Shown piece by piece: positions 17,663 through 63,894 of a stretch of 64,000 bases of DNA (its first letter is position 1; each line of letters starts with the position of its first letter). The notes under the pieces are model-generated. The model had not been told where the DNA came from and did not search any database. It saw nothing but the letters and a program-made list of their open reading frames with translations. Made by a program: the position numbers and the translations under genes. This stretch comes from Varanus komodoensis (Eukaryota; Chordata; Lepidosauria; Squamata; Varanidae), in the NCBI RefSeq assembly GCF_004798865.1, contig NW_025336088.1, positions 968,864-1,032,863 on the forward strand, in the 5' to 3' direction.

Positions 17663-18385
17663 CAATCTCCAGAATGAAAGTGGACTGACTGAGAGCAGTA
17701 AACCCCAAGACCCTAATGAGCAACTCATAGAGGGCAGCAAACCCCCTGGTACATATGAAGAGACTGAATCCAGCAGCCCCCAAGAGCTAAATGAGCAGGT
17801 GCAAGTGAGCAGCAAACCCCAGGACCCAGATAAGCAGGCTGAAGACAGCAAAATCCAGGACCTAAATGAGCAAGTCAGCAAGCCACAAGACCCAAATGAG
17901 CAGGTCAACAACATCCCAGACCCAAAAGAGCAGGTCAACAACATCCCAGACCCAAAAGAGCAGGTCAACAACATCCCAGACCCAAAGGAGCAGGTCAACA
18001 ACATCCCAGACCCAAAGGAGCAGGTCAACAACATCCCAGACCCAAAGAAGCAGGTCAACAACATCCCAGACCCAAAGGAGCAGATCCAAGAGAGCAACAA
18101 ACCCCAAAACCCACATGAACGGGCTGAAAACAGCAGCATACAAGAGCTAACTGAGCAGGTTCAAGAGAGTGACAGATCCCAAGACCAAAATGAGCAGGCT
18201 GAAGGGAGAAAACTACAAGAATTAAACGAACAGATCAAAGACAATGAGCAGCTAGAAATTCCACCTCAGAAGCAGCCTGAGAAAGAGGCTGTCCTGTCTT
18301 CAGTGACTGGTGCACAGGATGTTCCTTTGAGGGAAACGCAGGCTGAGTCACATCACGCCCTGGCCCCTGAACCCAGGCTGGAAGA
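17663..18385 (+). CDS. EFCAB13: EFCAB13-like, cassette 1: Gln/Glu/Pro repeat exon
   Basis: First confidently placed exon of the large EF-hand gene. The acceptor is TCTGATTTTCACAG and the donor is GAAGA|GTAAGT; 723 nt, entering and leaving in phase 2. The 241 codons contain no Met, so the start codon lies upstream. The product is hydrophilic and low in complexity, built on a loose 'KPQDPNEQ' motif. Its centre is six tandem ten-residue units of VNNIPDPKEQ (17904-18083). The C-terminal third (LEIPPQKQPEKEAVLSS onward) is not repetitive. It is probably a disordered linker. The repeat keeps several other frames open, and those are shadows. Assignment to EFCAB13 rests on the downstream EF-hand exons and the ITGB3 neighbour. 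Confidence 0.75.
17904..18083 (+). repeat. 30-bp coding minisatellite, 6 units
   Basis: Six in-register units of GTCAACAACATCCCAGACCC plus AAARGAGCAG, each encoding VNNIPDPKEQ. Units differ by an A/G at one site and by one unit reading KKQ. Flanking sequence on both sides contains decayed relatives of the motif (KPQDPNEQ, KPQNPHER). Confidence 0.97.
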
Positions 18386-19639
18386 GTAAGTCTAGCACTG
18401 CAGTGTAAAGCCTGGGCTTAAGGTCTGGTTCTTTAAGGTTCCCTCCCCACACACCCCTTGCCACTCTGGGTGGTGTGCAGAGCACCTTGTTTGAGGATGC
18501 TTACAGAGTTCCTTACAGTAGGGACATCTCACCTGTAATACTAAGAATGTATTTCCTCATTTTATTAACGTCTTTGTTAAGAGTTAATTCATGTTATTAA
18601 GTACTCTTAAAATAAGAATTCCCCTCTTCTCCCAATAATTCTATCTCTAGTGGCCACCTTGTCCAGTATCAAGACATGGTGGCCATGTAATAAAAATTGA
18701 TTCTTGTTGCTGTAACATTTATTGCAGAATCCATGTCTATAACTTGGCTACTAAGACAAATCAACTTCAGGTGTAGTCCTAGGCGCGTTCAGTCAGAAAA
18801 AGCATCCTGGGAGTTGTATGGCTCAGCTTTGGTCTAGGTCTGCACCTTTAAGGAAGTTCATGGAAGGAAAGTTTCCTGCCATCTCCTCTCTGCTGTAGCT
18901 TTCTGCACCCCCTGAAAACCTTCCCACAGGGTCAGGAGGGCCCATGTGGAATGGGCAATGGGGCCTGTCAAGAGAAAATGGGATTTTAGGTGATTCTGCT
19001 CCACCAGCAGCCTTCCTCTCCTCATGCCACATTGATTCATTTCCCCTGCTCCCAATTAACTCCACATTGTTGCAAGTCGGATTAATTAATGAGAAAATGT
19101 CCTTCCATAAAGTTCCTTAAAATAGCTTATCCTAGGAGCCAAGCCTATATAATTAGTCAAAAATTAGTTTTCACTAGTTAAGCTGAGTGATACTGTACAA
19201 CATAACATCTAGATTAGTATATCCAGTATAAGAGTCAGCACTGTACTTTGCTTACAAACCCCATTTGAAAGTAAGTTTTCCATTATTTAAGCCTTTTTTT
19301 TGTCAATCCAGGATAAAGACAAGCAAAATGAAAAGCTAAAGAGATTGGAGGTGTTTAGTTGAGAAGAGTAATGACTAAGGCTGTGATCCTGTGCGGATGT
19401 CCCTGTGTCCCTCTTTTTTTTTTTTTTTTTGCAAAACAGCAATAGACAATTTTAGCCATCTAATTGCAGCACTGCAGAGTGGAAGGGAATGGGTCTAAGA
19501 TGCTGCCAGGCAAGCTCTCCTCCAGCACCACGTTTCAAATGCATCTATTTTCTTCCTGTCAGCTTTCTTCACTATCCCACTTTCACACACATGCACAGTG
19601 ATCTAGAATACAATTATGTGGATGACTTTGTCCTTGGTC

Positions 19640-22066: not shown

Positions 22067-22294
22067 CAGTACCCTGCATGAGCAGGCCAAAGAAAGCAGT
22101 CCCCAAGACCTGAAGGAGCAGGTGGAAGAAAGTAGGGAAGCACCCAAGGAGGCCCCCAAGCAACATTCCCAGAAGGCAATTTCTCTATCCACCTCTGCAG
22201 TCTCACCAAAGAAACCCATTAAAAATAAGAAAGATGAAGCGTGCAGCACTCATGCCCCTGGAAAACACCTGCACAGTGACTACTTTTCTGCCAG
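22067..22294 (+). CDS. EFCAB13: EFCAB13-like, cassette 1: second low-complexity exon
   Basis: Enters in phase 2, completing the GA left at 18385, and leaves in phase 2 (GCC AG|GTAAGC). It has 228 nt and is open throughout. The start reads STLHEQAKESSPQDLKEQVE, continuing the QD-x-x-EQ motif of the previous exon, followed by a Lys/Pro/Ser-rich segment (APKEAPKQHSQKAISLSTS) and a basic KKPIKNKKDEACST stretch. The acceptor is a tandem TAG-CAG, so one residue may be optional. No known domain is visible. Its counterpart in cassette 2 is likely 48041-48229. Confidence 0.75.
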
Positions 22295-22539: not shown

Positions 22540-22915
22540 GATGGCTGAGTTGTACTACAGCAAAAGCCTCTGCATTTTAAGAACATGTCTGACAGAACTA
22601 GGGAGGTCTGTATATCAGCTGCTGAAGTGCTCCAGAGGGGATCAGTGCAGAACCACTGCAGTGGCGCCCAATCTATGGAATGCGCTCCCCAGAGAGGTCC
22701 ACCTGGCGCCGTCGTTATTTGTTCTTCCGCGCCAGGCGAAGACCTTTTTATTCAAACGTCATTTTAATTGTTAATAGTATTTATTCATTTTATTCTTTGG
22801 CCAGGGCGACTTAATTTTTACTGTTAATTTATATTAAGTAAGTTTATTTATGGATGTGAGCCGCCCCAAGGCTTCGGCAAATGGGGCAGCATAGAAGTCC
22901 CCTAAATAAATAAAC
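22540..22915 (+). mobile_element. L2-type LINE 3' end
   Basis: The 3' end of the ORF encodes VAPNLWNALPREVHLAPSLF and KTFLFKRHF, the C-terminal signature of L2/CR1-like ORF2 proteins. It is followed by an AT-rich UTR, GTGAGCCGCCCCAAGGCTTC and an AATAAATAAA tail at about 22905-22915. It lacks its 5' part. Confidence 0.85.
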
Positions 22916-22929
22916 CACTAAATGCTTTA

Positions 22930-24579: not shown

Positions 24580-24679
24580 GCCAAGGATCACACAGAGCCT
24601 GCCGGTGTATGGAAGAGCACCCTTTCAGGGATGCCTTTCTCCAAACAGAAAACCCAGAACTGCTGAAAAGGCCATTCAG
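24580..24679 (+). CDS. EFCAB13: EFCAB13-like, cassette 1: short basic exon (phase 2 to 0)
   Basis: The acceptor TTTTCCATTTCCCACAG is very good and the donor is ATTCAG|GTAAGC. The exon has 100 nt: one base completes the AG left at 22294, then 33 open codons (PRITQSLPVYGRAPF to TAEKAIQ) follow. It leaves in phase 0. Exon 48631-48727 in cassette 2 has the same phase change and nearly the same length (97 nt), with a similar acceptor (TTTTCCCATTGCCCACAG). This supports both as paralogous exons. No known domain. Confidence 0.75.
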
Positions 24680-27398: not shown

Positions 27399-27550
27399 AT
27401 TTCTCCATCCTTTGAGAGGCTCCCGAAGAGGCCACCTCTTTTAGCCAAGAAGGAGAAAAAAGAGAACAAGGTGATCACCCAGATTTCGCCAAGCAAGACC
27501 CGCCCACCCAAGTTGCACAAAAGGAGAAGCAGTAATTGTAATTGTCGCAG
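27399..27550 (+). CDS. EFCAB13: EFCAB13-like, cassette 1: basic linker exon
   Basis: Acceptor CCACCTTGACTACCAG, then an open frame ISPSFERLPKRPPLLAKKEK and KENKVITQISPSKTR, ending CGC AG|GTATGC (152 nt, phase 0 to 2). A weaker inner donor at 27483 (AAG|GTGATC) would give a shorter exon leaving in phase 0. The cassette 2 counterpart at 50319-50437 starts in the same way (ISERMLKQRLL) and also leaves in phase 2, which favours the longer form. It is strongly basic with no recognised domain. Confidence 0.6.
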
Positions 27551-28455: not shown

Positions 28456-28492
<37 letters not shown>

Positions 28493-28524: not shown

Positions 28525-29224
28525 ATACAAAGTGGGTGCTATGTATGCTGGGGCACTGTGAATGCTCCAATATTACAGAATATAAGCTTTGGCTGAGTTT
28601 ATGGCCAATGCGATGGCAAGTGTGGAGAGAAGTCATAACCTGGCACAGTAGAAGAAATGGGAAACATTTCATGCTTGGCAATGCTTGAGATGTCTCCTCC
28701 TAGTTCAGAAGGACTCATTCTGCAGTGGCAGAATAGATAACTAGATAAAAATTAAGCAAAACAGCAGTATACTAATCAACTTTTGTTACATGTTTTGGCA
28801 GGAAGCCTAATGTTATCTACAATCTCTATATAACCGTCTGTGACAGGTGGAGTGAAATTGATCCACTGCATATTAAGAGAACTTCTTGGGAAGGTACTTC
28901 ATGGGGTTGTACTCTGATGAAGGAGGTCCACGTGGCTAAAAAAAGACAGACTTCCTTATGTGTGAAAGTATTTTTCTTATTTTGATTTATTCTTTTGTTT
29001 TATAGGCCTGCAAAGAAACACACAAGATGGGATACAAAATATTAAAAAATAAAAAACATACACAAATTCATGTAGCATATTTTATAGCAGCAGAAGTTGT
29101 AAAAAAGTGTCTTGCCTGTTATATATGGGAGTGAGCCATACCCCTTTCCCCATCAGTGGCTATCAGTAGGTGCTTGTCTAATATGAAGGGATCTCTTAGT
29201 GCTATTTGTCATTAGCTGTTTGTT

Positions 29225-32215: not shown

Positions 32216-32359
32216 GGCTGTCTAGGGCCTGCACTGTTTTCAGCACTCTTAAGGCAGAGAGGATCCATCTCAGCAAACTCCTCCAGGTCCTGCGCACCCT
32301 GGGAATCCTGGTGACCAGCGATGAGATGCATCAGGCTCTCCAGTTTGTTAATGTGGATG
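32216..32359 (+). CDS. EFCAB13: EFCAB13-like, cassette 1: EF-hand exon 1 (144 nt)
   Basis: Encodes an EF-hand pair's first helix-loop-helix and the start of the second. It opens GLSRACTVFSTLKAERIHLS, continues KLLQVLRTLGILVTSDEMH and ends QALQFVNVD plus the first base of a Gly codon. The first loop has lost its acidic ligands (STLKAERIH). The acceptor is AATGTGTTCAG and the donor GATG|GTACGT; phase 1 in and out. Exon 53714-53857 is its paralogue, the same length and phase, sharing LSRACT, LGILVT and EMHQAL. EF-hand proteins usually bind calcium, but with this loop binding is unlikely at the first site. Confidence 0.85.
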
Positions 32360-33565
32360 GTACGTGGTAAGGTTCTTTGGCAGCTTTACTTTCTTGTGTG
32401 TGATCTGGGGGAAGCTTGATGTGCCTAGAAGTCTTGTTGAAATTGGAGGAATATATGGGAAAAACCCAATGCATTCATTTCAGTGTGTTGGACCCTGTTG
32501 ATGTGCAGTTGAGAGCAGCTGAGCAGGGCAAATGGCAACCTATATTCAACAGGTACTGAGTGTGTGGGGCAGGGAAGAATCACCTGACCTACTGTGGCCA
32601 GGTAAGCTTCTATGGCAGGTGTGTTTGGTCTCCTTTGTGCATTGTATAGTACACAGGGTGACTTCCTGCCTGGAGTTTCTCAAGTCATGTGTCCAAGACC
32701 TCCTATGTCCTCCTGTTCTGATACATTGTGATTTTTATCAAATTAGCTTTCAGTGGGTTGCACTTGTTTCTGAAACTTATGAAAAATGTGCACTTTTGAG
32801 TATATGATATAGCTTACATGTGTCTTTAGTACCCCCGTCTCTTAATGAGAAATTCTATTGGCTGACTCTCTCCTGCTCATGCACACTATTTTCCCTACAC
32901 AGAGGAGAGAGCACACTGGGCAAGCCACCATTTATGTCTTTCCACATGAGTTGGCCAAGTAAAGTGCCTTTTTAAAATCTCTTTTGCTTTTAAAGATGGT
33001 TGGCTCTTAGTGTCTTCCATAATGCCCATGCTAGCAGTGAAAAGGCAGAACCCCACTCTGAATTGGCAGTAAGCCAAGATGCTCATATGTGGCTTTTTGC
33101 CAGGCCGAGAGGGGCCATTGAGGCCAAGAAGAAGCCCCCCTCCTCAGTGCAGGTGGTCCAGTTGGCAGCATTTGTGTGCTCAGATACTCTGAATCCTCGC
33201 ATTCCATTTGCAAAGCCCCCCAAAACATGCAACAGATACACAGATTTTAGGAAAAGGCTTACAAATTCGAACCTGCAAAATGTCAAACTTCATCTAATTT
33301 TCAAAAGAAATAGGACATCTTAACAGATTTTAATCAAATGTATTGCCTTATGATATCCAAATTTACTTCCACTTACTGTGATATTGTACTATTAGTATAT
33401 TCTGTTCTAATATGGTATAGTTAATTTATTAAAGAATTTCAAAATCCAAAGCTGCACATTTTGAAAATATCTTTGTGCTGTTTTGATTTTCTAAATTCAA
33501 ACTCTGAAGACTATATAACATGTCAACAGAAATGCCTCACACACGGAAAACTGCAAAGTATTCCC

Positions 33566-46241: not shown

Positions 46242-46326
46242 GATTTATCAGACATCACTACGGATGTGGAAGCAGCAGAACTTTCTGTTCCAGAAGGATG
46301 GAGTCCCCACTCGAAGATGCCAGCAG
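46242..46326 (+). CDS. EFCAB13: EFCAB13-like, cassette 2: first exon (85 nt, phase 1 to 2)
   Basis: Acceptor TTTCTTTTCCCTTTCAG, donor AGCAG|GTAACT. Entering in phase 1 from 42458 it reads GFIRHHYGCGSSRTFCSRRM and ESPLEDAS, and leaves with AG, which joins to the acidic exon at 47480 without a stop. The other two frames are also open (e.g. DLSDITTDVEAAELSVPEGW), so the frame is set by its neighbours, not by the exon itself. The window ends on what looks like the same exon of a third cassette (63994). Confidence 0.6.
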
Positions 46327-46349
46327 GTAACTGGTTTTCAAATGCCTTG

Positions 46350-46545
46350 AGCAAATTCTTTTCCTGTTGCCAAAAATATAATAATGCTGGCATGAGGCAG
46401 ACCTCAGTGGGCAAAGTGTCCCACAGAGAAGGCCCTCTCCCTTGTTGCCATCCTTCAAACTCCCCGTGGAGGAGACCCTTAGAGGAGGACTTCGGAGGAA
46501 CATAGTGGACAGACCGGTTCATTCCAGGAGAGGTGTTCAAATACA
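46350..46545 (+). repeat. Interspersed repeat fragment
   Basis: CACAGAGAAGGCCCTCTCCC followed by TTGTTGCCATC and a GGACTTCGGAGGAACATAGT block is a pattern I recall from abundant interspersed repeats of squamates. The family name is uncertain. Confidence 0.4.
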
Positions 46546-47479: not shown

Positions 47480-47797
47480 ATCTCAAGACCCACATGAGAA
47501 GGCAGCAGAGGAGAGCAACTTCCAAGACCCAAATGAACAGGGTGAAGATGATGACAAATCCCAAGACTCAAATGCACAGAGTGAAGATGATGACACATCC
47601 GAAGACTCCAATGAGCGGAGTGAGGACAGGATCAGTATATTTCTGGAGACGCCAGACCAGCCATCCCAGGAAAGGGAGGTGACACACATTTCTAGTTCAC
47701 AGGAAAAGAGCGCAACAGACTGGAAGAACGATCTATCCAGCTTTCTTACTGATGAGTCAGACCCATCCACTCGCTTCTCTGCACTCCATTTGGACAA
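47480..47797 (+). CDS. EFCAB13: EFCAB13-like, cassette 2: acidic repeat exon
   Basis: Acceptor TTCTCCTTTCATAG/CAG (tandem), donor GACAA|GTAAGG, 318 nt, phase 2 in and out. It reads SQDPHEKAAEESNFQDPNEQ, then GEDDDKSQDSNAQSEDDD and TSEDSNERSEDRIS, then a non-repetitive part (IFLETPDQPSQEREVTH to LTDESDPSTRFSALHLD). The QDPNEQ motif is the same as in exon 17663-18385, and the acceptor region resembles that of 22067, so this is the cassette 2 match of those exons. Very acidic and probably disordered. Confidence 0.8.
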
Positions 47798-48040
47798 GTA
47801 AGGGAGCAACATATACAACAGAAGATAGAGTTTGGCAGCTCCTTTCCCCTCTTAGAGCTAACAGCAGAGCTTTTCATCTTGGGGTATTTTTCCAATGACC
47901 ATCAGTTATATAGTCCTTCAAGTTTTCCTTGCCTTTTTGTAATCCCAAATTGTTTTGATGTGACCCTAGCATGATATATGTAATGCTGCCAGCCATTACT
48001 GTTGTTTCTATGAAAAGGTTTGTTTTTCCCTCTCTTGCAG

Positions 48041-48229
48041 CAAATCCCAAGAGGCAGCCTGGGTAGAATCAGACCTGGAGATCCCAGAGACGGAGACGAA
48101 GTATGAGGAGCAGCTTCCCTGCACCTTGTGGAAACAGACCAGGACTGAATGGAAGGAGGAAATGCCCCGCTGCTGTGTTGCAGAGCGCAAGCAATCCTTT
48201 CACAACTGTTGCTGCTATAGTGCCACTGA
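48041..48229 (+). CDS. EFCAB13: EFCAB13-like, cassette 2: second low-complexity exon
   Basis: Acceptor TTTTTCCCTCTCTTGCAG, donor ACTGA|GTAAGC, 189 nt, phase 2 in and out. It reads KSQEAAWVESDLEIPETETK, YEEQLPCTLWKQTRTEWKEE and a Cys-rich end (MPRCCVAERKQSFHNCCCYS). By position it corresponds to 22067-22294, though the sequences have diverged. The four closely spaced Cys near the end are unusual for this protein; I know no domain that fits. Confidence 0.75.
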
Positions 48230-48630
48230 GTAAGCAGAGGCAGGGTGTTGTGCCTGGCAGCACTGAGTCTGGATGGCTAAAAATGGCTGTCTAGAGAACA
48301 TACTCAGTGTGAGGCATGGTGGTGGTGGCAGAGGTCACTGCATCTGCCATGGAGGTGATAAGACTGCACTCTCTGTCTCTCACCAATGCATGGGCAAAGT
48401 CTTGCCACTTTTCCCTTTTCTTTTATTGTGCCCTCATTTCTTTCCTTGGGGAACTGAAGTGACTTTCTGCTAAATGGGGTTGTCGCTCCTGGCAAGAGGA
48501 GACCTGTGAAGCCCTGTGAGGCAAGTTTACATGCTGGTCAATGTCCCCAGCTCTGTCAGCTCTGGGGCTTGCCTCAAAGGAAGTGAAGTCCCCAGTGTGT
48601 CACCCTTTCTGCTTTTCCCATTGCCCACAG

Positions 48631-48727
48631 GCAGATAATCAAGCACAGCCCAGTACGCCCTGCAAAGGGACCATGTCGCAGAGGCATCATTTGGAAACAT
48701 CAGGCACCAAAGTTCAAAAGAAGTGAG
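48631..48727 (+). CDS. EFCAB13: EFCAB13-like, cassette 2: short basic exon (phase 2 to 0)
   Basis: Acceptor CTTTTCCCATTGCCCACAG, donor AGTGAG|GTGAGA, 97 nt. One base completes the GA from 48229, then 32 open codons follow (QIIKHSPVRPAKGPCRRGII, then WKHQAPKFKRSE). Same place, phase change and size as 24580-24679. Basic, no known domain. Confidence 0.75.
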
Positions 48728-49566
48728 GTGAGATGAGCGCCTTTGAAAGGCATTCAGGTTTGGAATTTGATCCTCCAAGGCAGTGGTTTTCAAAGCAATG
48801 GGCTGCTCAAGGAGGAGTTCAGTAAAGGCAGGCAGACATCACTGAAAGACAGTTGCCCAGTTTCGCTACTGCTTTTCTGCTGAAAAGGGCAGCCCTGGGG
48901 AGAGTGAGGTGCTCCAGGGCACACTCTTGGCTGAAGCTGAAGAGCAACGGCCAACATACCTGACTGCCTTGTTTGAACGGCATGTGTGCCCATTGATAAG
49001 CTCACAAATGCTCTGGCAATGCAGAGGCATTCCTTGCTAGACAATTCAATATGGAAAGTGCTTCTGATAGAATGGTAACTTCAGCATGCCCCAGTTTGCT
49101 GTGGCACAGAGGCTGGGTAGTCCCAGGACTGTACTAGGTGCAGCTTTCAAACCCCACACAGTACATGTTACATCATCAAACTAACAATACACAATGGCTA
49201 GGATCCCTATGCAGGAATGGGCACAGTTGGCACCATAACCAAGGTTGGCAATGGGTGCTCCCAGCCACAGAGGTCACCCAATTTGCTAGTGTCAAAAATC
49301 CAGACCATAACTGTGTCTCATTCAGAAGATATGGCCTCTTCTGGTTTAGATATCACAGACAAATAGGGCTGGGTGTCATCAGCCAGTTGCTGACAGCCCA
49401 CCCAGATCTGCAGTGACCACTCCCAACAGCTAAATATAGGTGCGAAATAACTCTGTGGACAAAATAGTGTGTACATATAGCACCTCCTTCTCCACTCTCC
49501 ACTGGTGACTGTTGTGTGTGCACATTCTGGCAAGTTTCCCTGGCACACACAAGAAGCTGACCATTT

Positions 49567-49685
49567 TGGCTGGGCTGATGGCTCAGATTCTGAGAAGGGG
49601 ATGTATGAAGGGGAGTTGACCTATCCTGGCAGGGCTGACAGCTCATGCTCTGATAACGAGATGGTTGTTGAAACAAACTCATTCT
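49567..49685 (+). repeat. 60-nt direct repeat in an intron
   Basis: TGGCTGGGCTGATGGCTCAG recurs 60 bases later as TGGCAGGGCTGACAGCTCAT, each followed by a CTCTGA/TTCTGA and GGGATG/GAGATG block. The frame over it is open (WADGSDSEKG, GRADSSCSDNE) but has no splice support, so I read it as a decayed repeat of unknown origin. Confidence 0.4.
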
Positions 49686-50318
49686 AGCTGCAGTCCAAGG
49701 CCCTGGGTACCTGTCTGTGCCTGCTAGGGAAGAGATTAGTTCAAGGGCAGCTGAGGGGTCCAGTCAACTCACATGTGGAATGAGCAACAACATCCTGAGG
49801 CAGGGGATTAGATGGGGAGTCTATTGGATGGAGAATTCCAGCCCCCTGAGGAGGTTAACCCCATAGTCCATTGTCAAGTCAGAGGGTGGCCTAATTGGGG
49901 TCCCAGAGGAAGAAACACAGGCGTGCTCCCTCCAGAGGCAGGAGGAGAGGGTTTCATAAGCAAGGCTTTGGGTGAAGGGGGCCAGAGAGGGTTCAACATT
50001 TTGCTTTGTGTATGTTCAGAGATTATATGTAAAAATAAAGATGTTTGGCAAGAAGCACTGGCGAGACTGTTACTGCTGGGAGAAAGCAATCAGCTCACGA
50101 AAGTGAGGCAGATGTGCCAGCATATTGCTAAAATCACACTGGCCCCAACTCTGCACCCCTGCTGATGTCACCTGGATGAAATGTGGGCTAGAGCTTTGCC
50201 ACCTGTCTGCAGGACTACAGAGTGGCACCTGTGGAGGGAGGAAGCTGCTGCTTTCCATCCCTTCCTGCTCTGCTTCCAGACTGTACACTTGAACAGATCT
50301 CCTGTCACTCCATCTCAG

Positions 50319-50437
50319 ATCTCTGAAAGGATGCTGAAACAGAGGCTTCTTGCGGGCATAAAGAGGAAGAGTGACCACAAAGAATTTGCCAAGAATCAAG
50401 CAGATGAGACAACTTCATTTGGCTCAGCCAAGGGCAG
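50319..50437 (+). CDS. EFCAB13: EFCAB13-like, cassette 2: basic linker exon
   Basis: Acceptor CACTCCATCTCAG; reads ISERMLKQRLLAGIKRKSDH, then KEFAKNQADETTSFGSAKG; leaves as GGC AG|GTTTGA (119 nt, phase 0 to 2). The donor is weak, but the phase it gives is exactly what the next exon at 52465 needs, and the start parallels 27399 (ISPSFERLPKRPPLL). If the donor is not used, the frame reaches a TAG at 50474. Confidence 0.6.
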
Positions 50438-52138
50438 GTTTGAACACCTGATGCAATATGACAGATGGCTGTAGGAGACAGACCACTTTTACCTGAACCA
50501 GTGGAAAGCTTTGCCTGTTTCAGAATTTGCTCCTGGAAACTCTGAGAAGGGTTCCTGGTCTGAGCTGCAGAGATGCTTGAACTTAGGGCAGATCTGCATA
50601 GTGCAGTTTTCACAGGAATGCACACCAGCACTGCTAATCCCAGAAAGCCAGTTATCATGGACATTTCCTGCATCAGTAGCAGAAAGATGTGACAGCATTG
50701 TATGTTCAGTAGCTTATTCCAGAAGGAGTAGCCAAAAGATGAAGGAATGGTAATCAGGGACTGGAGGTGTTTTTTTTAACACCTGGATAATGCAGTCATG
50801 GAAGGAACACTTTTTGAACAGAAAAGCTGAAGGCTGGAGAGGGGACTACCTAAACCCTCTCTATGTGCTGTTTTCCCCTCAGCACCACATCCCCCAGATA
50901 AGGGGACCAGATGTGCATTTACTGCATCACGAATAAAAGAGGCAAAAGGATTTTAGAGGGAAGGCAGCATGTAGGAGGAAATGTGATCACCTCTGTGACA
51001 ATCTCTGTCTCCATGGCAAATGTCCTGCCATCTCTTCACAGCCCTTAGTGGCTATGTGGGTTCCCAAACCCAGGTATGCTATCATTTATGAATGAACCTC
51101 ACGAACCCCAACCAGCTAGAGATCCAGAATATGCTTGGATCTATGTTTCATGCCAGCATGTCACCTTACCATATAAACATACCCTGGTTTTGTTTGCTGA
51201 TGTGATGTTAGACTGACATCAACTGCAGCCACTTGTCACAGGTCAGTTAAAATGAACTGCTTGCACAGGAATTTGGGGATCTGGATAGAGACACCAAACT
51301 GGCAGAAACTATTGCATGTGTCACATAAATAAGCATAGACATGTGTTTTATCACCAGTAGGAATCTATGTTGTGCAGTGTTATGATATTTATGTCTTCAA
51401 GAAATGCTAATAGTTGTGTTTGCTCTCTCCCTCTTTTCCACTTCAGCAGACTCAGATGAAACCTTAGAAACACAGTCCTTTTATTAAAAATTAACAAGTT
51501 CCAAGATTTGTATAGCTCAAAGTAGCATTCTCTACAAAATGTGAGAGAAGTATCTGCCCATGTGAAGAGTTGAATCTGAAGTGAAATCCCCTCCTTTCCT
51601 CCATTTCAGTAAAGCTTCTGACTCCACCCTTAGGATGGCTCCTGCTGCTTGAGGATTACATGGCAGGAACATCAGGCACTTAATTGTTCTGCTTGCATTG
51701 CCTGTCTGCTCCTGACAGGGTCCAGGAACTCCCTTGATCACCTCCCCACCCAGGACTGAAAGGTCACCCTCCTTTTCCAAGGCAGGCTGGTTCTCAAGCT
51801 CTGTCTGTGAATCTTCACTAAGTAACTGCCAAGACATATGCCCAACTGTGCCTCAAAACCAGATGTATGTGTCTGAGCAGGAAATAATGTGCGAGAACTG
51901 GGTCCCTTCTCTACTAGTTACTCCATTTTCCTCATTATTCTCTAAAAGCAAAGCCCCCTTCAGTCATTCAAATAAACTCGAGGAGAAAGGAGTAAAACCT
52001 CTGTCCCTGCTGTGTTCATTTCTGTTCCAAGGTTCACTGGAGTAACTGAAAAGATCCCCATATGTTCACATGTAATGCATGATGAAGTTTCTCTTCATGC
52101 TCAGGAATCTTGCTGTTCAAGATGAACTATAGCAAGTC

Positions 52139-52140
<2 letters not shown>

Positions 52141-52201
<61 letters not shown>

Positions 52202-52218
52202 CCCCCCCCCCCCCCCCC
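52141..52218 (+). repeat. CT microsatellite followed by a C run
   Basis: About 29 CT units (52141-52199) pass into about 20 Cs (to 52218). Open frames over it give Ser/Leu runs only. Confidence 0.97.
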
Positions 52219-52464
52219 ACTCTTTCTCTACCTATAAGGTTGCCTGGTTTGTTTGTCCACAAGGACCATTTGACCATGTTGGCCACCCATTGGCTGATCA
52301 GCTGCAAGCCACCTGCCTTGATTCACCTCCTAAAACTATAGGAAAGAGTGGGAAAGACTCTACCCTTGGCCAGCCAGTTGAGAGGCTTCCAAGTCCTGGA
52401 ATACTAGGGATCGAGAGAGAGATTTCAGTGGTTGTAATAATGAACTGTATGCCTCTCTTGGCAG

Positions 52465-52550
52465 GAGGAGTAAAGCTTTGTACAACCTCTACACTACCTT
52501 CTATGATGAGGGAGAGCAGTTTGACCCATGTTTTGTTCAGAGAGGAAAAG
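52465..52550 (+). CDS. EFCAB13: EFCAB13-like, cassette 2: pre-EF-hand exon (phase 2 to 1)
   Basis: Acceptor GTATGCCTCTCTTGGCAG, donor AAAAG|GTAATG, 86 nt. In the phase set by its neighbours it reads RSKALYNLYTTFYDEGEQFD and PCFVQRGK. It joins to the EF-hand exon at 53714 as G-GA. It is the only exon in the window that converts phase 2 to phase 1, which makes the whole cassette add up to a multiple of three. No known domain. Confidence 0.7.
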
Positions 52551-53713
52551 GTAATGATGAACTGGGAAAGTTATTTTCATTGTCACAGCAAGGGCTGGAA
52601 ATTGTGGCCAAAGTCTAGATGGCCATCCGGAAGGCAACAAGTGATGACGACGGATGTAGACAAGGCCATTGTGTTGGGCTGGAAGTCACCAGCTTGGTGG
52701 CCACATGTTGCCCTGATGTTTTTTTCTTTGTATTTTCAAAAACATATTATTGGTGGGGGTGGTTGGCTAGGCAAGTACATGTCCAGATTCTCATGTTATT
52801 ATTTTTACCTTTAAATGATATTATCCATTCCTACAGCAAAATGATACTTACTTCCAAGTAAATGTGATATGCATCAAGGCAACAGATGGAAACTCCATTT
52901 TATGTCTATAGTCATGAGTTTAAAATGCAAACTACACATGCTCAGTATATTTTGTCTTCATTTTATCAGGTTGGTATGCTCCAGCAGACCAATACTGAAT
53001 TCATTGTAAATCATGGAATGAAATGAAAGTGGGGAGGAGAGGAGAAAGAGGAATGTTAGTTGTGTGCCCCACAACTGAACTGAACATGACATCTGAAGCC
53101 ATCATGAGACTGTTAAGCCCAGGATCTAAAATTACCTAGCTGCACCACCGTTTTTGTCACACTGCTCTGCTAACAAAAGTGATTAGGCCAGCAGCTTCCT
53201 TTTCATTAGATATCAGAGGATTTCCTCGCCATATAAGTTTGTCAATATTTTAGGCTATTTCACTGATGTGGCACGATGAAGTCATCTTTTCATGTTGATG
53301 GCAGGGGAACCCGGAATTACCACCTGGATGTATATATCAACAAACATTTTCATGTTGTCCAAACTGGCAGATTCCAGAAAGGTCTCTAGAAGCTGGTATG
53401 CAGAAACATATGATGCTTCTAGACAAAGTATTCCAAGTTTATGGCACCACTGCGCTTCCATATGCATAGAACATTAGGGTGGGCCCAGATTCATTCTTCT
53501 ACTCCTGAATCTCCCATGTTTTCGCATTACTTCTTCTGTCTTTTTCTTGCAAATGAAAAGCTGCACAGTGCTTCTTTGACTGCTAGTGCTAGGATCCCTC
53601 CATCAAGAAGTATCCTGAAACAGATTCAAGATGGGGTTGGATGTTTGGGGAATCACCTATTGGGCAGCAGGGGCAGGAAAATCTAGATTGACAATATTAT
53701 CCTTGCTTTTCAG

Positions 53714-53857
53714 GACTCTCTAGGGCTTGCACCATATTGAATGCTGTCAAGAAGGGAAAGATTAATGTCAAGCACCTCCTCCTCACTCTGCACACACTGG
53801 GGATCCTGGTGACTGCTGCTGAGATGCATCAGGCTCTGAAGTTTGTTCCAATAGATG
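53714..53857 (+). CDS. EFCAB13: EFCAB13-like, cassette 2: EF-hand exon 1 (144 nt)
   Basis: Acceptor CCTTGCTTTTCAG, donor GATG|GTGCGT, phase 1 in and out. It reads LSRACTILNAVKKGKINVKH, LLLTLHTLGILVTAAEMHQA and LKFVPID. It is strikingly close to 32216-32359, including intron-flanking bases (GATG|GTRCGTG). The first loop (NAVKKGKINVKH) has Gly at position 6 and Ile at 8 but no acidic ligand and His instead of Glu at 12, so it should not bind calcium. Confidence 0.88.
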
Positions 53858-54539
53858 GTGCGTGCAAGCTTTCAGTTCCAGACCTGAAGTTTTCCTCCAC
53901 TATTATTTTGCATTCATTGAAAAAGGGAGACTTCTGGTGGAAACAAGGGGAGCTTCTATTGAAATGAGCAGGAAACATAATTAACATAATTGCACTTATA
54001 GTTTTGCATCTTGACACAAATGGTATGTATCTACTTGCAAAATTTACATCAAGTTATGCCAATAAATTTTATGGTCAGTCAGAGAAGGCCTGTGTAAATA
54101 AAGATGTGTTCAAAGAGTCGCATCAATGTGAGTTCCCCAAAACTTTCAAAATCAGAATATTCTTTCATTTTAGACTTGCTTACTAGAAATTTCAAGTAAT
54201 ACTTGTTCTCACACACGTTATAGAGCATGCAAACAAGTACTTCTTCAAGCCATGACAACAGATCTGAGCAAAAGCACAAATGCCCACTGACTGACAGCTA
54301 AATGTTTTTGCTATTAGATTTCAGGCCATTTGCAAGAACCTCCTATTTGCATAATAACATGTTAGATTGTGCCTTTTAGAATTGGATTCATCTGAGTTTG
54401 GGATCTGAACTCGGATTCTCATTAGACACACAAATGAAGCAAAACATTTGCTTCAGTTATAATACACAGACTGCTGTCACCCCATACCTCTTACCAATGC
54501 CTCTTATCAACGCCTCTTACCTCCTTCTTCTCAATTCAG

Positions 54540-54611
54540 TACATGGGAACCTGGACTTTGGCGACTTCCTATGTGTTATCAAGGAGACATTGCCATGCAA
54601 TGAAACAGATG
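54540..54611 (+). CDS. EFCAB13: EFCAB13-like, cassette 2: EF-hand exon 2 (72 nt)
   Basis: Acceptor CTTCTTCTCAATTCAG, donor GATG|GTAAGT, phase 1 in and out. With the exon before it forms the loop PIDVHGNLDFGD and then FLCVIKETLPCNETD. Compared with cassette 1 (NVDGSGTLNFYE), position 1 is Pro and position 5 His, so this copy has lost the ligand set that its paralogue keeps. Confidence 0.87.
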
Positions 54612-55625
54612 GTAAGTGGAAGGAAACTGAGACAATAGCAGGAAAAAATGGCTCCTTAGTGCCTTAGTGAATAAAACAATGTATAATAACTATTTATTCC
54701 TTAGTGAATAAAATAATGTATAATAAGTATTTCTGACTGAGGTATCACACTCTTTTCCTTCACAAACACTCATCACTCATAAATCTACCTTTCTCTTCTG
54801 CACTCCAGTTCCTGTCAGCTTCACTCTTACACACCCTTAAAATACTTGACAATATTAGGTTTTGACTCTCCCTGGTCACTAATATGTCCATTAAGTAGTC
54901 TTTCCTTATGCATCCTAAATGCCTTCTAGAGCACCATATAGGATTCTCAAGAGAAGGCTGCCTCTTCAGATTTTGCAGATCACTGACTGTAACTGCTGAC
55001 AGACCACACCATCTATTTCTCTCTTCTCCCACACTCTCAAGCTCTGCCCACACACTCTCAGTCACCAGCCAATTACCTCACTCATCCCCCTCTTGTCTCC
55101 CACTTGCCCTTCTGAAACTTGCCAACATTTAAAGGAACACACTCATAACACTTTAAATCACTACTCCTTTGATCTCTGTTTCCCACCTTTATCCTCTTCT
55201 TCATTCATGTGGCTCACAGTCTCCTTGCCCTATCTCCTTCCCACTCAGTCAGCTGAACTCTGCTGCTCTTCGCTTTACATGTGTGACATTTTAAGCCATC
55301 ACTGACAGCTTGCCCTTCCCTTTTCAAAGGTGGACTGTGCATGTCCTGGTGCTGTTTTTTGTTTTCTGAGATACAGGCATCACACCTCCTCAGCCAATCA
55401 ATATGAGAGGCTGCGCTAGCTCAGCCAAACAATGCCTAAGACGTCAGCAACACAAGTGAAATAGAGGATAAGACCTGAACATGTTTCCTGCACTATGGGC
55501 AAAGATGGTTTATGTTGCATCATCTGTCCACCTCAGTCCACCCATTGGAATATATAGGAAAAGGGAGCGAATATTATTTTGTGCTTACTAATTGTGCCCT
55601 TTTTCCTCCCTGGTACTTTTTGCAG

Positions 55626-55769
55626 CTCTACAGAATGCACAAGAAGTTTTCAGGAAGATTAAGGAAGACATGGTGGCTATTGAGGAGTTGGAGCCAATTT
55701 TGGCATGCTTGGGAGTCACTTTGAGCCCCATGGTTATACAACAGGCACTGGAATGCACTCAGCTTAGCT
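55626..55769 (+). CDS. EFCAB13: EFCAB13-like, cassette 2: EF-hand exon 3 (144 nt)
   Basis: Acceptor GGTACTTTTTGCAG, donor AGCT|GTAAAT, phase 1 in and out. It reads ALQNAQEVFRKIKEDMVAIE, ELEPILACLGVTLSPMVIQQ and ALECTQLS. The first loop (RKIKEDMVAIEE) lacks the central Gly and the first two ligands. Paralogue of 39386-39529. Confidence 0.87.
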
Positions 55770-56289
55770 GTAAATATATACCAGTCTCAATATATGCTGG
55801 GGGAGCAAACACTGATTGTAGCATTAAGCTGAAAATTTTAGTCAAGCCTCTGTAGTCAACAGAATATTCTTGCTGGTAGTAGAGATTCTGGCAAAGCAGT
55901 CCTGATCCAGCTTGGAAAAGAACTTTGGGAGCACATTTAAACCCATCAGACAAAACAAGGCAGGTGTCTCAGGGAGCAGGTGAAAAAGGATGGCGAATGC
56001 TGGTGAGGTACTGGAGGACAGAGATGTGTGGCCCTCTGTCCCTTAATTTAGTCTGCCACCCTCAGGTATGGTGGAGGTCAGCTGGCAACACACAGGCAAA
56101 GAAAACCGAAATGCACATCAGCCTTCTTTCTCACTGCTATGAGAGTAGAAATGAGAGTTTTAGTTTCTGGAGGAAAAGCAAATTATAAATATAATTCTAA
56201 AAAGTAAATAAGGTTATACCAGAAAAAGATAATAGTTTTACATGATGCTCATAATAAGACTCCTCTACCAGCATATAAAATGGCCACTT

Positions 56290-56400
56290 GTACATTGTGT
56301 TTATTTATTTATTTATTAAAACATTTTTATGCCGCTCCATTCGCCGAAGCCTCGGGGCGGCTTACAACAAAAAATTAAAATAACATTTTAAAATATATAC
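56290..56400 (-). mobile_element. L2-type LINE 3' tail, antisense
   Basis: TTTATTTATTTATTTATTAA followed by TTTTTATGCCGCTCCATTCG and AAGCCTCGGGGCGGCTTACA is the reverse complement of the L2-type end also seen at 22850-22915 (GAGCCGCCCCAAGGCTTCGG). Confidence 0.8.
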
Positions 56401-57333
56401 ATTAAAATACAAATATATAATATAAAACATACAATATAAAACATGTGCAGTAGAGCAACATGCATCAAGTACCCCACCTGGAAATGTATCTTACAGAAAC
56501 TCAGAGAAAATACACATAAAAACCAACCTGCTTTGACCTGCACTGCAGTGATCTCAGCCTGTCTGCAAAATGGGACTAACAGCCAAGGACTGCTTGGGCA
56601 TGCTGATGCGGCCCACAGTCAGCCACAGAGTGCCCCCACCCACTGCCCTGCATTTAAGGGCATAACAGCAGATTTATTTTACATTAGTAGGTGTTTTCAT
56701 AGTTAAAGGCGATTTTTAAATGGTGCTTTTTGGAGTATGAAATAAGACCTGGGCTAACACACACACACACGCCCAATCATTCCTGCTAGCTGTTGTGGCT
56801 GCCATGCACAGCTACATGGACTGCCCAATAGTTTTCTGTGTGTTCCATGGGCAGAGATTTTTTTTTAAGAGGCTGGTTCAAAATGCACCAGGGAATTACA
56901 TCTGCAGACAAGCGCTCACTTTGTAGTTATCCCCATCACAGTAGTGGCTTCGCACATTACCTAAATGCACTGAAAGGCAGTAGTAGCTTCTTGTTTTGCA
57001 AAACAGTTCTGCTCTATGATTGCCGTTTCTCACAAAACAGTTGAAATGGGCCTGAACATTTTGCATTAGATCATATGTTCTATAAAGGCCAGAGACTTGT
57101 GCTTTCTTTATTTGTATGCTGGGAATCTGGGCTAGCTTGTGGGCACCTGGAGGTGTTGGGCCAAGGAGCTACTGTCCCTATAGCCTTGTGGGTACTCTTC
57201 CTGTGGAAGCCACCTTGTCCTTTGCCTCAGGCAGCAAAATGTCTTGGGTATGTCCTGCCATGATGGACTCGAAGGGAGAAAGGCATTCCCTTGCATAAGC
57301 AGGACACCTCCAATTCTTTCTCTTCTGTCGCAG

Positions 57334-57405
57334 GGGATGGGAAAGTGAACATCTTGACATTCCTGCTGACGGTGAGGGGAGCAACAGGCCTCTGCACAGA
57401 AGTAG
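57334..57405 (+). CDS. EFCAB13: EFCAB13-like, cassette 2: EF-hand exon 4 (72 nt)
   Basis: Acceptor CTTTCTCTTCTGTCGCAG, donor GTAG|GTAAGT, phase 1 in and out. With the exon before it forms the loop QLSWDGKVNILT and continues FLLTVRGATGLCTEV. Asp-Gly is kept at positions 5-6, but position 12 is Thr instead of Glu. Paralogue of 40129-40200. Confidence 0.87.
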
Positions 57406-58371
57406 GTAAGTGCCCTCACAACCATCCTGGCATCAGCCAGAAAGAGCAACACCAGGCTCCTCTGCTCAGTGGAATCAGTTGCTGCCCTCTAACAAGGATG
57501 GGGGACCTCCAGCATGCAGCTGCCAGGAATCCACCACAAAATTTTTCTGCTGTTATCTGTATTTATGGCAATTAAGTCCTCAATGTCCTGTGCAGTTTAT
57601 TGGCATGGGGGATGTTGCATGGGGGCTTACTCTTAAGTAGGCAGGATTAGAGTAGAGTTGTGTCGTGCATGCTTAGCATGGAAATGTTCCAGATAGTAAG
57701 AATGACACCCAGCCTGGCCCAACTTGCTTCCTCTGTCCTTGCCCCCACCCCCATTGTGCCCTTAGGTCCACCCAGTGCTGAAACTGGGCTATTGAAACCC
57801 TTCCCAAATTGGAACTTGGGTCCCAGAATGGAAAACATTCCACACCTCTTCTCTGTAATAATAAAAATCAGCATTGTGTAGTGCTTTCAGGGTGTCCCAA
57901 TCACTTTAATAGGACATCTTGTACAGTATTTTATATGGTTTATTAAAAAGCTTAACTTCTGATAAAAGAGGCTTACTGTATTTATGTTCTGCATCAAAAG
58001 TGACTCTTTGCTCTTACTTTTTGTTAGAATTTATAAGAGATGGCCCAGTTTTGGAGGGAGGGCATTCCTCCTGAGTTTCTATATGAGTTGCTGATTTGGA
58101 AGTAGGTACTGGATAAAAGGAGGTCAGCCTAGAGCAGCAACCCCTGGAAAAATGCAGTAGGAAGGCACTTCTGTAGTGTTTGCGGAGAGTCACTGAATGC
58201 TCCAGCCATATATGTACAACAGCAACGGGATGCAACAGGCAGCCTTCTTTGTGAATAGAATCATAAGTCCCCTGCCTTTTAATTTTTTTTCCTTGCTCAT
58301 AGCTGTGCAACATACTATTTGAGAGAGATTGTGCAGAATATTCTCTTTGCTTCTCTGTGTCACATCTACAG

Positions 58372-58971
58372 ATGACTATGCAACTTCCCAGGACTTTGCT
58401 GCTGTGGGTGATTTAGAGACTCTGTTGAGAAGAAAAAGGAGTTTACTAGAAGGGGAGACACAACCTGGTCATGCTAACCTTTTTACATTCTATGATCCAG
58501 ATGAAGGGGTCACGCTCGCCCAGCTACAGAAGGGAAAAAATAAATCACAAAAATCTGAAGGTCCAAGAAGACCCCAAACTGCATCTCCAGAATGTCACAC
58601 AGAGCAGAAGAGCAAAGAAAATCAAGGCATACAGTGGCCAAAGGTTCGACCACACTTTGGCTATACCAGCCAGTACACTCTGTTTCCCCTAAGCTCCTCT
58701 CTGTGCTTTAAAGAACAGGATAAACAGTTTGTCCAGAAGCCAAACACAAAAGAGTTGTCACCACGTGTGGACCAAAAGTCTGCACCTTCCTCGGTTGCAC
58801 AGATAAGAAGCAGCCATGAAGTCTTTCCACAGCAGAGGAAAAAGAAGATGCTGACCTTCCAGGAGAAACTCCCAAAGAGGTATGACCATGAAGATAACGT
58901 TCATGTAGCAAATCCCAAGACTTCTGGAAGTGAAGGCCAGCAACATTCAGAAGATCTTTCAGCCCAGCAAG
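58372..58971 (+). CDS. EFCAB13: EFCAB13-like, cassette 2: long hydrophilic exon (600 nt)
   Basis: Acceptor CTCTGTGTCACATCTACAG, donor CAAG|GTGGGT, phase 1 in and out, exactly 200 codons. It starts DDYATSQDFAAVGDLETLLR, then RKRSLLEGETQPGHANLF. A long Lys/Ser/Gln-rich region follows (QLQKGKNKSQKSEGPRRPQ; PNTKELSPRVDQKSAPSS; VFPQQRKKKMLTFQEKLPKR), ending SGSEGQQHSEDLSAQQG. It corresponds to 42099-42458 but is 80 codons longer. Probably disordered, with basic clusters. Minus-strand frames over this exon are shadows. Confidence 0.85.
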
Positions 58972-60089
58972 GTGGGTCCTGAAATGTTGTCTGTTCAATG
59001 CAATACATACCCGAGTTGCACATTTTGGTTCAGGTGAATTGTAGGGGAGACTTTTGAAATTACTTCTAAAGATGTAAGGAGAGTGTGCACATGTATGTTG
59101 CGTGTTGGGTGTTGTGGGGGGATCCTTCTCAACTTTCCAGCAGGATTAAGAAGTTCAGTTCATCAGTGGGACTTTCCTGCAACAATTTTGACTTAACTTG
59201 GATACTATACAGCCTCTCGTACCTTGATATAGCCTCTCTCCCTCCAATGGCCTCTGTTATCCCTCCTTCTTGCCCCTTCTGAACAATATTGACTTTATTC
59301 TTTTTTCCTTTCCAAAGTTGGCTCACCACTGGATCCTTGAGTCCAGATTCTCTCCAGTCTAGTACCCTCTTTTAGTGAACACAAACATAAGATGGCCAAT
59401 CCTTCACCAACTCCTGGAAGCTCCCCTTTCCTCACTATGTTATCTAACCTCCTTTAAAGATATGAACCAGGGAACCCTTGCTATTGAGTGATGGGCTAAA
59501 AGGCCAGTATTTTCATTTACAGGTTCTGGCACAGCTCCACCACCAGATAGCCTGCTGATTCTCCCTGTGTTGACTGTGCTTGGCTTCCCAGCTATGCCAT
59601 GCCAGTGTGGCATTCCATGTGGCAAAATGTCTGTTGCATTTTGCTTTCTGCATCCAACTCTCTGGCAGGACCAGCCCAACCGTTAGGCAATGGGGCCTCA
59701 GGCAGGAGATTTTGAGTGTGACTAAACAGCTGTTTCTTTTATTGTGATAGCATATTATTGTTAGGAAGTGAAAGAGGCACCTGTGAGATTTTCTGCCTGG
59801 TGGTACTATTCACCTTCATTTGGGAAAGGTGGAGGGGGTGTTATCTCAGGCAGCAAATGCTTTGGGCTAGGCCTGCCATATTGGATGTGTTCCATAGTAA
59901 ACACTCTTGTTCTGGATGATTCAGGCAGTACCTGGTTTCTGGCATTCAGCATCAGAGCTTGTAGACAACATTGGTCCCTTGAATGTGCTCCTGGCTATTA
60001 TAACATCAAGGAATCAGGGCAAAAGCAAGTTGCCTAAGGCCCAGTACTAACAGACAGCAAGGGGAGACACAGTCCTCTAGGTTTTTCAT

Positions 60090-60736: not shown

Positions 60737-60744
60737 TCACTCCC

Positions 60745-61015
60745 TCCTTCATGGATCACTGTCTTGTCATGGCGAAGGGGTTTGCGTAGCTCAATGAAGC
60801 TATGAGCTATGCTGTGCAGGGCCACCCAAGACGGACAGGTCATAGCAGAGAGCTCTGACAAAACGTGATCCACTGGAGAAGGAAATGGCAACCCACTTCA
60901 GAATCTTTGCCATGAAAACCCCATGGACAGTACCAAAAGGCAAAAAGTTATGACGCCAGAAGATGAGCCCCTCAGGTCAGAAGGTGTCCAATATGCTACT
61001 GGGGAAGAGAAGCAA
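60745..61015 (+). mobile_element. BovB LINE 5' end only
   Basis: TCATGGATCACTGTCTTGTC followed by TAGCTCAATGAAGCTATGAG, AAACGTGATCCACTGGAGAA and GGACAGTACCAAAAGGCAAA, ending in GCTACTGGGGAAGAGAAG. This is the reverse complement of 36500-36770. Only the first ~270 bp of the element are present, abutting the CR1 terminus on the left. Confidence 0.88.
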
Positions 61016-61584: not shown

Positions 61585-62296
61585 GGAGATACTTGGCTCA
61601 ACAAGTGGAAAAGATCTTGAAACTGTTGTAGATCACAGGTTGAATATGAGTCAACAATGCAATGTGGCTGCAATGTGATGTGGAAAATGCTATTTTCAAC
61701 TGCATTAATAGAGAAGTATCACTTCCAAATCCCATGAAGTACTAGTTTCACTTTAATTAGCACTGAGTAAAAGGCATCAGCACTCAGTTAGGGCTCATCT
61801 GGAGTATTGTATCCTGTTCTGAGCACCACAGTTTAAGAAAGATGCAGTCAAGCTGGAACGGGTTCAGAGGAGGGTGACAAGGTTAATCAGGGACTGGAAA
61901 TAAAGCCCTGTGAAGAGAGATGGAAAGAACTTGAAATATTTAGCCTGGAGAAGAGAAGACTGAGGGGAGATATGGTGGCACTGTTCAAGTACTTGAAAGG
62001 TTGTCACAAAGGGGAAGGCCAGGATCTCTTCTCAATCATTCCAGAGTGCAGGATGACAGTGGGCTCAAGTTATAGGAGCTGGATTCCAGCTGAACGTCAG
62101 GAAGAACTTCCTGACTGTTAGAGCACTACTACAATTGCCTAGGGAGGTTGTGTGCCCTCCCACACTGGAGGCACTCAGGATGCAACTGGACAGCCATGTG
62201 AGAGGATGGTTTAACTGGGAGTCCTGCACTGAGCAGGGGGTTGGACCTGATGGCCGAACTGGCCCCTTCCAACTCAACTATTCTGTGATTCTATGA
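61585..62296 (+). mobile_element. CR1 LINE 3' portion, longest copy
   Basis: Contains the RT-distal segments 'AGGGCTCATCTGGAGTATTG', TGAGCACCACAGTTTAAGAA, 'AGAGGAGGGTGACAAGGTTA', TAGCCTGGAGAAGAGAAGAC and TTGGACCTGATGGCCGAACT, and the terminus TTCTGTGATTCTATG. About 700 bp; 5'-truncated as usual. Confidence 0.9.
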
Positions 62297-63798
62297 AAAC
62301 CAAAAAAGGTAGGTGTCCACTAAACCTTCAAGTTTTATCCCATCCCCATCCACATAGGCTTCCTGTGCAATAAATGAATGATGCAGGGTTCCATTTTTGG
62401 TTGCCACTGTGGTTGTAGGACAATGAAATCCTTGCGGAAAGGCAAGCCACACCTTGTGAAATATGTATTTTCATGCCATATAAGGCACACTGCCATCTTT
62501 CACTCTGTTTTGGGAAGCATGTTGTCAGGAGGTAGGCTGGGATTGTGTTGTCTTTCACAAACTATTTGCCTCTAAAGTGTCAGGCACAACACAATCTGCT
62601 TTTCTCCCCTTCTCTTGCCAAAGAGAAAGGCAGGGATGTGAATCCTGCTGTGCATCGGCTCCTTTAATGGGAAAGTGCAGTTTTAAAGGTAGTAAACTTG
62701 TTATCTCTGGAGACGTTTGCTAAATGGTAGGTGTGTGGGGGAGATTTTTAGCAGAAGATGAAAGGTATGGAAAGCACTTCTCTTTCCTCCTCTATTTTGG
62801 TGCAACACTACTTTGCACTAGGCACTGCAAGCTAGCACAAGTACTACCAGGAACATCATTGAGCTGGAATTTTTAAGCAACTTCCCAAAGATGACAATTC
62901 CCATGGGACATGCTTCTAATGATAACTTGCCACTGGCTCCCAAAACCCATCTTCCAGCAAAATGATTTACCAGATCTTCTTGGGTGAACTTTCAAAGGAG
63001 GAAATTTTGACACTGAGCTAGCCATGCTGAACAGATCTTCCTAAACTGTGCTGTAAGGTATCACCAGGTGAAATTCAACATGGATTTGTCCATGCTGACA
63101 TGAGGAAATAGGTCAACATGATTTGGAACCTATGTGGGATCTGCATGAATATTCACCATAGAGAGGCAAGGAATTACACAATGAAACATGTTTTCAAAGC
63201 TCCAGATTCTTCTTAAACATTTTTCTGCCATATCCTGAAGATTTAGTATGAATTGCAACATGCCCTGTGCCCTTTCACTCTTTGAAACAATTGCATTCTC
63301 AACTATGGAATTAGTCCCTGATCCACCCTCCCAGCATCACAACCACAATAAGTAAACTGTACCTCTCCTCAGTCAGCCAGTTTAGAGACCCCCTAAAGGG
63401 TTTTAGCTTTTCATTATCCTACAGAAAGGGAGCTTCACCAACACCAAGCCGTGCTGGCAGTTTTGCAAAGAGCATATTTCAGCTGGGTTTTCCTGTGATT
63501 TCTCTGCTTCTAAAAGGATTGAAGTAGATCCACAGAATTCAACATCCTTTATGGCATGCCTCACTTGACTATCAAGGCCTTGGTTAACACGGCCACAAGC
63601 TTCCAATATCAGTGGGCACAAGCAGAACATTGCCCTGTATTCCAGTGGAAAGCAGCCAGTATCGATGACAACAGAATGGGTCTCTGTTGGATTGCTGCTT
63701 ACCTCACACAGGTGGTAGGAACTTGTACCATTGCTTCACAAGCACATCATACTCATTTTAGGACTGAATCTCTTGCTTGGCTCATGGAAAACATCCAG

Positions 63799-63894
63799 CT
63801 TTTAAGATGGCTAAGAAAGAGGCTAAGAAAGCTTCACCAGAAGTAATTCCTGGACCTGACCAGAATGTGCCACGGGTCATACCAAAGTTTAGGG
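63799..63894 (+). CDS. EFCAB13: EFCAB13-like, candidate 96-nt exon
   Basis: Acceptor CATGGAAAACATCCAG is modest; donor TTTAGGG|GTGAGA. In phase 1, as left by 58971, it is open: FKMAKKEAKKASPEVIPGPD, then QNVPRVIPKFR, leaving in phase 1. The length is a multiple of three. I found no equivalent between 42458 and 46242, so it is either specific to this junction or not an exon. Confidence 0.45.

Follow-up and report, generated by a model that had tools for sequence, protein, structure and literature searches.

What is one gene in mouse, Efcab3-like (Gm11639), corresponds to two genes in human and gorilla, EFCAB3 and EFCAB13, which arose by a split (PMC8662591). In human, EFCAB13 comes after ITGB3 (PMC10045734), and in cattle both genes lie within one 103-kb region (PMC6282042). 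The EFCAB13/EFCAB3-like genes are poorly understood, and their break-up in hominines is discussed in connection with brain size. Duplication of multi-exon units inside a gene is illustrated by nebulin, where intragenic super-repeats consist of multi-exon blocks that were tandemly duplicated with the phase kept. Here we describe a locus of the EFCAB13 type in the window, i.e., the whole 64-kb stretch of DNA that was analysed, which contains two runs of exons called copy 1 and copy 2 below.

Upstream of the EF-hand exons and on the same strand, the window contains the tail of ITGB3, the neighbour of EFCAB13. The penultimate exon of ITGB3 (4497-4754, + strand) encodes the transmembrane/cytoplasmic part with the integrin beta cytoplasmic domain (Pfam 1.7e-10), and the terminal exon (about 5941-6003, + strand) encodes NPLY...TNITYRGNS-stop, NNPLYKGATSTFTNITYRGNS. 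After splicing, the EF-hand exons of copy 1 match Pfam EF-hand_7 at 1e-11 (45.5 bits against the cut-off of 30) and calmodulin at 8.9e-20; those of copy 2 are degenerate but can still be recognised by a calmodulin match at 3.9e-9, Pfam giving no EF-hand hit below E 0.1. Taken singly, none of the EF-hand exons passes Pfam, so that the splicing of copy 1 is independently supported. EF-hand domain pairs were found in both copies, by Pfam in copy 1 and by the calmodulin match in copy 2. The initial annotation, made from the sequence alone, related the gene to EFCAB13/EFCAB3-like genes, and this identity agrees with both the EF-hand similarity and the ITGB3 synteny: the locus is EFCAB13-like, and the family assignment is sound.

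Human EFCAB13, in a sequence used as a lead and not as a database record, has one set of these segments: first a YNLY-like segment, then 144-a, 144-b, 72-b and the long hydrophilic region (exon names are those of the list below). This sequence aligns with the YNLY, 144-a, 144-b and 72-b exons at E 4e-19 for copy 1 and 3e-13 for copy 2 (26-28% identity), and a gap of 24 residues falls exactly on exon 72-a. The two copies are closer to each other (44%) than to the human sequence, which suggests, if the latter is right, a duplication within this lineage.

The features of the two copies are as follows.

12059-12249, + strand: copy 1, upstream non-coding block, candidate for a promoter or for a first exon without coding sequence; pairs with 45757-45950
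12577-12671, + strand: copy 1, start exon, ATG at 12643, out phase 2; z 12 to 46242-46326
17663-18385, + strand: copy 1, acidic repeat exon, phase 2 to 2, 30-nt tandem repeats with a QDPNEQ-type motif; extra acidic copy
22067-22294, + strand: copy 1, second acidic/low-complexity exon; top partner of 47477-47797
24580-24679, + strand: copy 1, 100-nt exon, phase 2 to 0
27399-27550, + strand: copy 1, basic Ile-Ser exon, phase 0 to 2; p 0.02 against 50319-50437
28802-28893, + strand: copy 1, YNLY ("LYNLY") exon, phase 2 to 1; z 13.0 against 52465-52550
32216-32359, + strand: copy 1, EF-hand exon 144-a; z 23.8, 57% amino acid identity to copy 2
36988-37059, + strand: copy 1, EF-hand exon 72-a; z 9.6, completes the most canonical loop NVDGSGTLNFYE
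39386-39529, + strand: copy 1, EF-hand exon 144-b; z 23.6
40129-40200, + strand: copy 1, EF-hand exon 72-b; z 9.0
42099-42458, + strand: copy 1, long hydrophilic exon with a phase-1 donor at 42458; alternatively a last exon, open to TAG 42536-42538
45757-45950, + strand: copy 2, upstream non-coding block; partner of 12059-12249
46242-46326, + strand: copy 2, start exon, ATG at 46298 in AGGATGG context
47477-47797, + strand: copy 2, acidic exon; paralogue of the copy-1 acidic exons
48631-48727, + strand: copy 2, 97-nt exon, phase 2 to 0
50319-50437, + strand: copy 2, basic Ile-Ser exon, phase 0 to 2; weak donor
52465-52550, + strand: copy 2, YNLY exon, phase 2 to 1
53714-53857, + strand: copy 2, EF-hand exon 144-a; pair with 32216-32359
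54540-54611, + strand: copy 2, EF-hand exon 72-a; pair with 36988-37059
55626-55769, + strand: copy 2, EF-hand exon 144-b; pair with 39386-39529
57334-57405, + strand: copy 2, EF-hand exon 72-b; loop without the position-12 acidic residue
58372-58971, + strand: copy 2, long hydrophilic exon with a phase-1 donor at 58971; TGA in frame at 58977-58979

Outside the exons, RTE/BovB-like retrotransposon remnants can be seen by eye at 1-1040, 35726-36804, 60744-61008 (- strand) and 33425-34474, the first three being near relatives of one another, as well as CR1- and L2-like LINE remnants at 61837-62293, 9548-10015 and 22541-22771. The combination of such LINEs with BovB-like elements points to an amniote, possibly a reptile. 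The Rfam search of the window gave no match.

The runs 17663-42458 and 46242-58971 were compared in all six frames for ungapped HSPs, with the reverse strand serving as the control. The forward-strand HSPs (scores 151, 121, 65, 61 and 51) lie in one collinear order: acidic exon, 28797/52460 (65), 32212/53710 (151), 36993/54545 (61), 39367/55607 (121) and 40119/57324 (51); in the control, transposon matches aside, the scores are about 52 or less. The 72-b HSP (40119/57324) is by itself at noise level and is accepted from its place in the order and from the exon-level test, i.e., the Smith-Waterman comparison of peptides against shuffles, in which the acidic exon pair has z 7.5. The EF-hand exons are exactly 144, 72, 144 and 72 nt long in both runs, all with phase 1 to 1 and AG/GT sites. 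Hence two runs in the same order with these EF-hand exons, and with an exon of 97-100 nt that takes phase 2 to 0 (24580-24679, 100 nt, and 48631-48727, 97 nt), are present approximately where the initial annotation had placed them. The self-alignment proposed there as a check succeeds for the acidic, YNLY and EF-hand exons (z 7.5-23.8) and fails for the peptide of the 100/97-nt exons, the long exons and the low-complexity exon.

The 100/97-nt, Ile-Ser and long exons are paired mainly by position and phase. The 100/97-nt pair has no peptide similarity (z -1.0 against shuffles), with a flank DNA score of 16 against the control maximum of 12; the peptide similarity of the Ile-Ser pair is weak (p 0.02), and that of the long hydrophilic exons is not significant between copies (p 0.10). 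The acidic exons are indeed paralogous; the best partner of 47477-47797 is, however, 22067-22294 (z 15.5 for flank and exon DNA, the closest acidic pair; blastn E 1.5e-6, with the match extending into the intron) and not 17663-18385 (z 12.8), which had been paired with it and is an additional copy of the acidic exon. A seven-copy 30-nt coding minisatellite (NNIPDPKEQV) occupies 17816-18115 in this additional exon and is likely to vary in length. The second low-complexity exon thought to be common to both runs had to be abandoned, with z 0.1 for 48041-48226 against its run-1 counterpart; the run-2 exon has no partner in run 1. Run 2 with 1926 nt in compatible phases, as we reconstruct it from the initial annotation, needs this same exon, which is followed by TG and not GT. 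The nearest GT after it (48229) gives 189 nt instead of 186, and the other 186-nt AG..GT stretches in the interval have very poor sites; a 186-nt exon was rejected.

Overall, copy 1 and copy 2 are 41-44% identical, and their paralogous exons are collinear, in the same order and phase. The tandem duplication of a multi-exon unit is real. The runs could be thought of as convergent low-complexity and EF-hand look-alike exons chosen by eye from intronic sequence, the more so as the run-2 low-complexity, Ile-Ser, 97/100-nt and long exons are weakly or not similar between the runs; however, six exon pairs are collinear and far above shuffles, and the spliced exons match calmodulin at about 1e-19 while single exons fail Pfam. 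We regard such an explanation as extremely improbable, and for the core exons it is already refuted. Exons 144-a and 144-b are similar to one another as well (z 8.4 and 7.1; E 0.0046), so that duplication of the 144+72 EF-hand module came first and that of the larger block followed.

The opening exon of run 2, 46242-46326, aligns with 12577-12671 (DNA z 12). The latter exon and its upstream block are absent from the initial annotation. The copy-1 ATG (12643) is preceded by three in-frame stops (TGA, TGA and TAA), and 12577-12671 is thus a start exon that begins with 5' UTR. The two start codons, at 12643 and 46298, align (AAAATGG and AGGATGG; in each, position -3 is A and position +4 is G). 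Both exons end in an identical donor (CAG/GTAAC) in phase 2, in agreement with the phase of the acidic exons. The predicted N-termini are MDNPLDSTDS-NLQNES... in copy 1 and MESPLEDASS-RSQDPH... in copy 2.

The upstream blocks 12059-12249 and 45757-45950 are 65.7% identical over 198 nt (E 4.5e-18), occur in two copies only within the window, and are separated from their start exons by 328 nt in copy 1 and 292 nt in copy 2. Both hold an identical 14-mer CTCTATGACATCAT, which includes the CRE-like TGACATCA. Elsewhere, intron DNA has no detectable similarity between the runs past exon edges; therefore, the block is kept better than neutral sequence of its age, and we take it for a probable promoter. 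A shared transposon was rejected as its origin, considering the two window copies at matching distances from homologous exons. A point against two separate starts is that no CpG island was found at either of them; the CpG observed/expected ratio of the window is very low, 0.129. Since the start exon and the upstream block are both present twice, the second cassette does not lack a gene start of its own, and what was duplicated is the 5' half of the gene, including the start and a probable promoter.

Each 144+72 exon pair encodes an EF-hand pair, with the intron inside the second loop. At loop positions 1, 3, 5, 6, 8 and 12, hand 2 reads NDSGLE in copy 1, which is near-canonical, versus PDHGLD in copy 2, and hand 4 reads HNNGVE versus QSDGVT, the latter without the acidic residue at position 12. 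Judging by these residues, copy 1 keeps one near-canonical predicted Ca2+ loop and copy 2 has lost key ligands; copy 2 may then function as a structural or protein-binding version and not as a Ca2+ sensor.

Over 498 aligned nt of the YNLY and EF-hand exons, pS between the copies is 0.61 (dS about 1.2) and pN is 0.33, with pN/pS 0.54 (bootstrap 0.43-0.67). The copies are old, and both are probably coding, considering that the frame and splice sites are kept and the EF-hand exon lengths are exact. One of them might be a decaying pseudogene: the loop ligands and the Pfam match below E 0.1 are missing in copy 2, and the pN/pS value permits relaxed constraint in one copy. At this dS, however, a neutral copy should have gathered stops and frameshifts, which are absent; in copy 1 and copy 2 alike, the frames of the EF-hand, YNLY, acidic and start exons are still open, and their phases match and their splice sites are retained. 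Decay of one copy was rejected as quite improbable.

We believe it fairly probable that this is an EFCAB13 locus whose 5' half was tandemly duplicated long ago, each copy with its own probable start. The duplicated half would comprise upstream DNA, the start exon, the acidic exon(s), linkers, YNLY, two 144+72 modules and the long hydrophilic exon. As the unit would have carried the start exon with about 0.5 kb upstream of it, we infer two promoters, i.e., probably separate transcription and translation starts in each copy. Copy 2 is probably the start of a gene that runs on rightward past the window, and copy 1 would either end in its long exon or splice into copy 2. The earlier proposal that the gene grew by duplication of a block of roughly 11 exons is thus retained as a multi-exon tandem duplication, whereas growth of one gene by internal cassettes does not follow from it, run 2 opening with a start-exon paralogue.

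The same exons might belong to one long gene with a start near 12 kb, in which the copy-1 long exon is spliced into 46242 and the gene continues through copy 2 rightward, the second start exon being now internal and coding. The donor at 42458 is strong (AAG/GTAAGG, score 7.5; such sites occur at about 0.05 per kb), the phase 1 of the copy-1 long exon fits the 46242 exon (1 to 2) and then the acidic exon (2), both long-exon donors are of phase 1, and the frame joined over both runs is stop-free for 1337 codons; moreover, mouse Efcab3-like, which includes EFCAB13, is a single gene, split in hominines (PMC8662591). However, the copy-1 homologue of the 46242 exon is a start exon with the three in-frame stops before its ATG, the non-coding block upstream of the 46242 exon is duplicated and conserved, and the pre-ATG codons of the latter, FIRHHYGCGSSRTFCSRR, are unlike the remaining protein and were UTR by homology. 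By our estimate, about 18 UTR-derived codons would be open by chance in about 4 cases out of 10, and the phase fit has a chance of 1/3. Because the unit includes the gene start, phase-compatible joining of the runs is not good evidence for one gene. One long gene of this kind is in our view rather doubtful; the single-gene internal-cassette reading is possible, and less likely than two tandem starts or genes. It is unlikely, too, that a fusion took place, in which the last exon of copy 1 is joined in frame to what used to be the copy-2 start exon and the old 5' UTR is now coding; the locus would then make two proteins, a long one with both cassettes when transcribed from promoter 1 and a short one when transcribed from promoter 2.

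For the tandem duplication with two starts, the 3' ends are suggested by the following. The copy-1 frame is open past the donor at 42458 to TAG 42536-42538, and AATAAA is found at 42790, 252 nt after this TAG; with 0.8 such motifs per kb in the window, it is weak evidence for the end of copy 1. An in-frame direct repeat with 102-nt spacing (42338-42399 and 42440-42501; z 9.9) spans the putative donor. In copy 2, neither AATAAA nor ATTAAA was found for at least 1.5 kb after the TGA, and so this copy more likely continues rightward. Past the hydrophilic region, no further EF-hand exons were found up to position 64000, where the window ends. The third block expected at the right edge was not confirmed: searches of 59-64 kb with the EF-hand profiles, with the start exon and with the 5' block gave no match, Pfam finds nothing in the stretch that ends at 63894 (MAKKEAKKASPEVIPGPDQNVPRVIPKFRG), and the acceptor score of the site before 63808 is -4.3, which makes it unusable. 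In the interval 63808-63894, an ATG in good Kozak context opens a basic stretch of 29 codons that has a GTGAGA donor.

The finding is a variant within a known gene family. The duplicated 5' half with its start offers a natural comparison for the gain or loss, in this gene, of starts and of EF-hand function, and exon-phase compatibility across a duplication does not prove a single gene. Similarly to EFCAB13 of human (17q21.32) and cattle (BTA19), the locus has the ITGB3 neighbour and EF-hand modules; in contrast to human EFCAB13, which presumably has one set, its 5' half is present twice. It shares the family with mouse Efcab3-like, and long genes and structural rearrangement are known there; the Efcab3-like split is a rearrangement of about 15 Mb, whereas the duplication here is local and tandem. 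As in calmodulin, which is the best solved-structure match by sequence, there are four EF-hands in two pairs; unlike calmodulin-type pairs, most loops are degenerate, the low-complexity flanks are long, and an intron lies in codon 4 of the even-numbered loops. Finally, the tandem multi-exon blocks with the phase kept resemble those of nebulin, although the unit here includes the gene start and so need not lengthen one protein.
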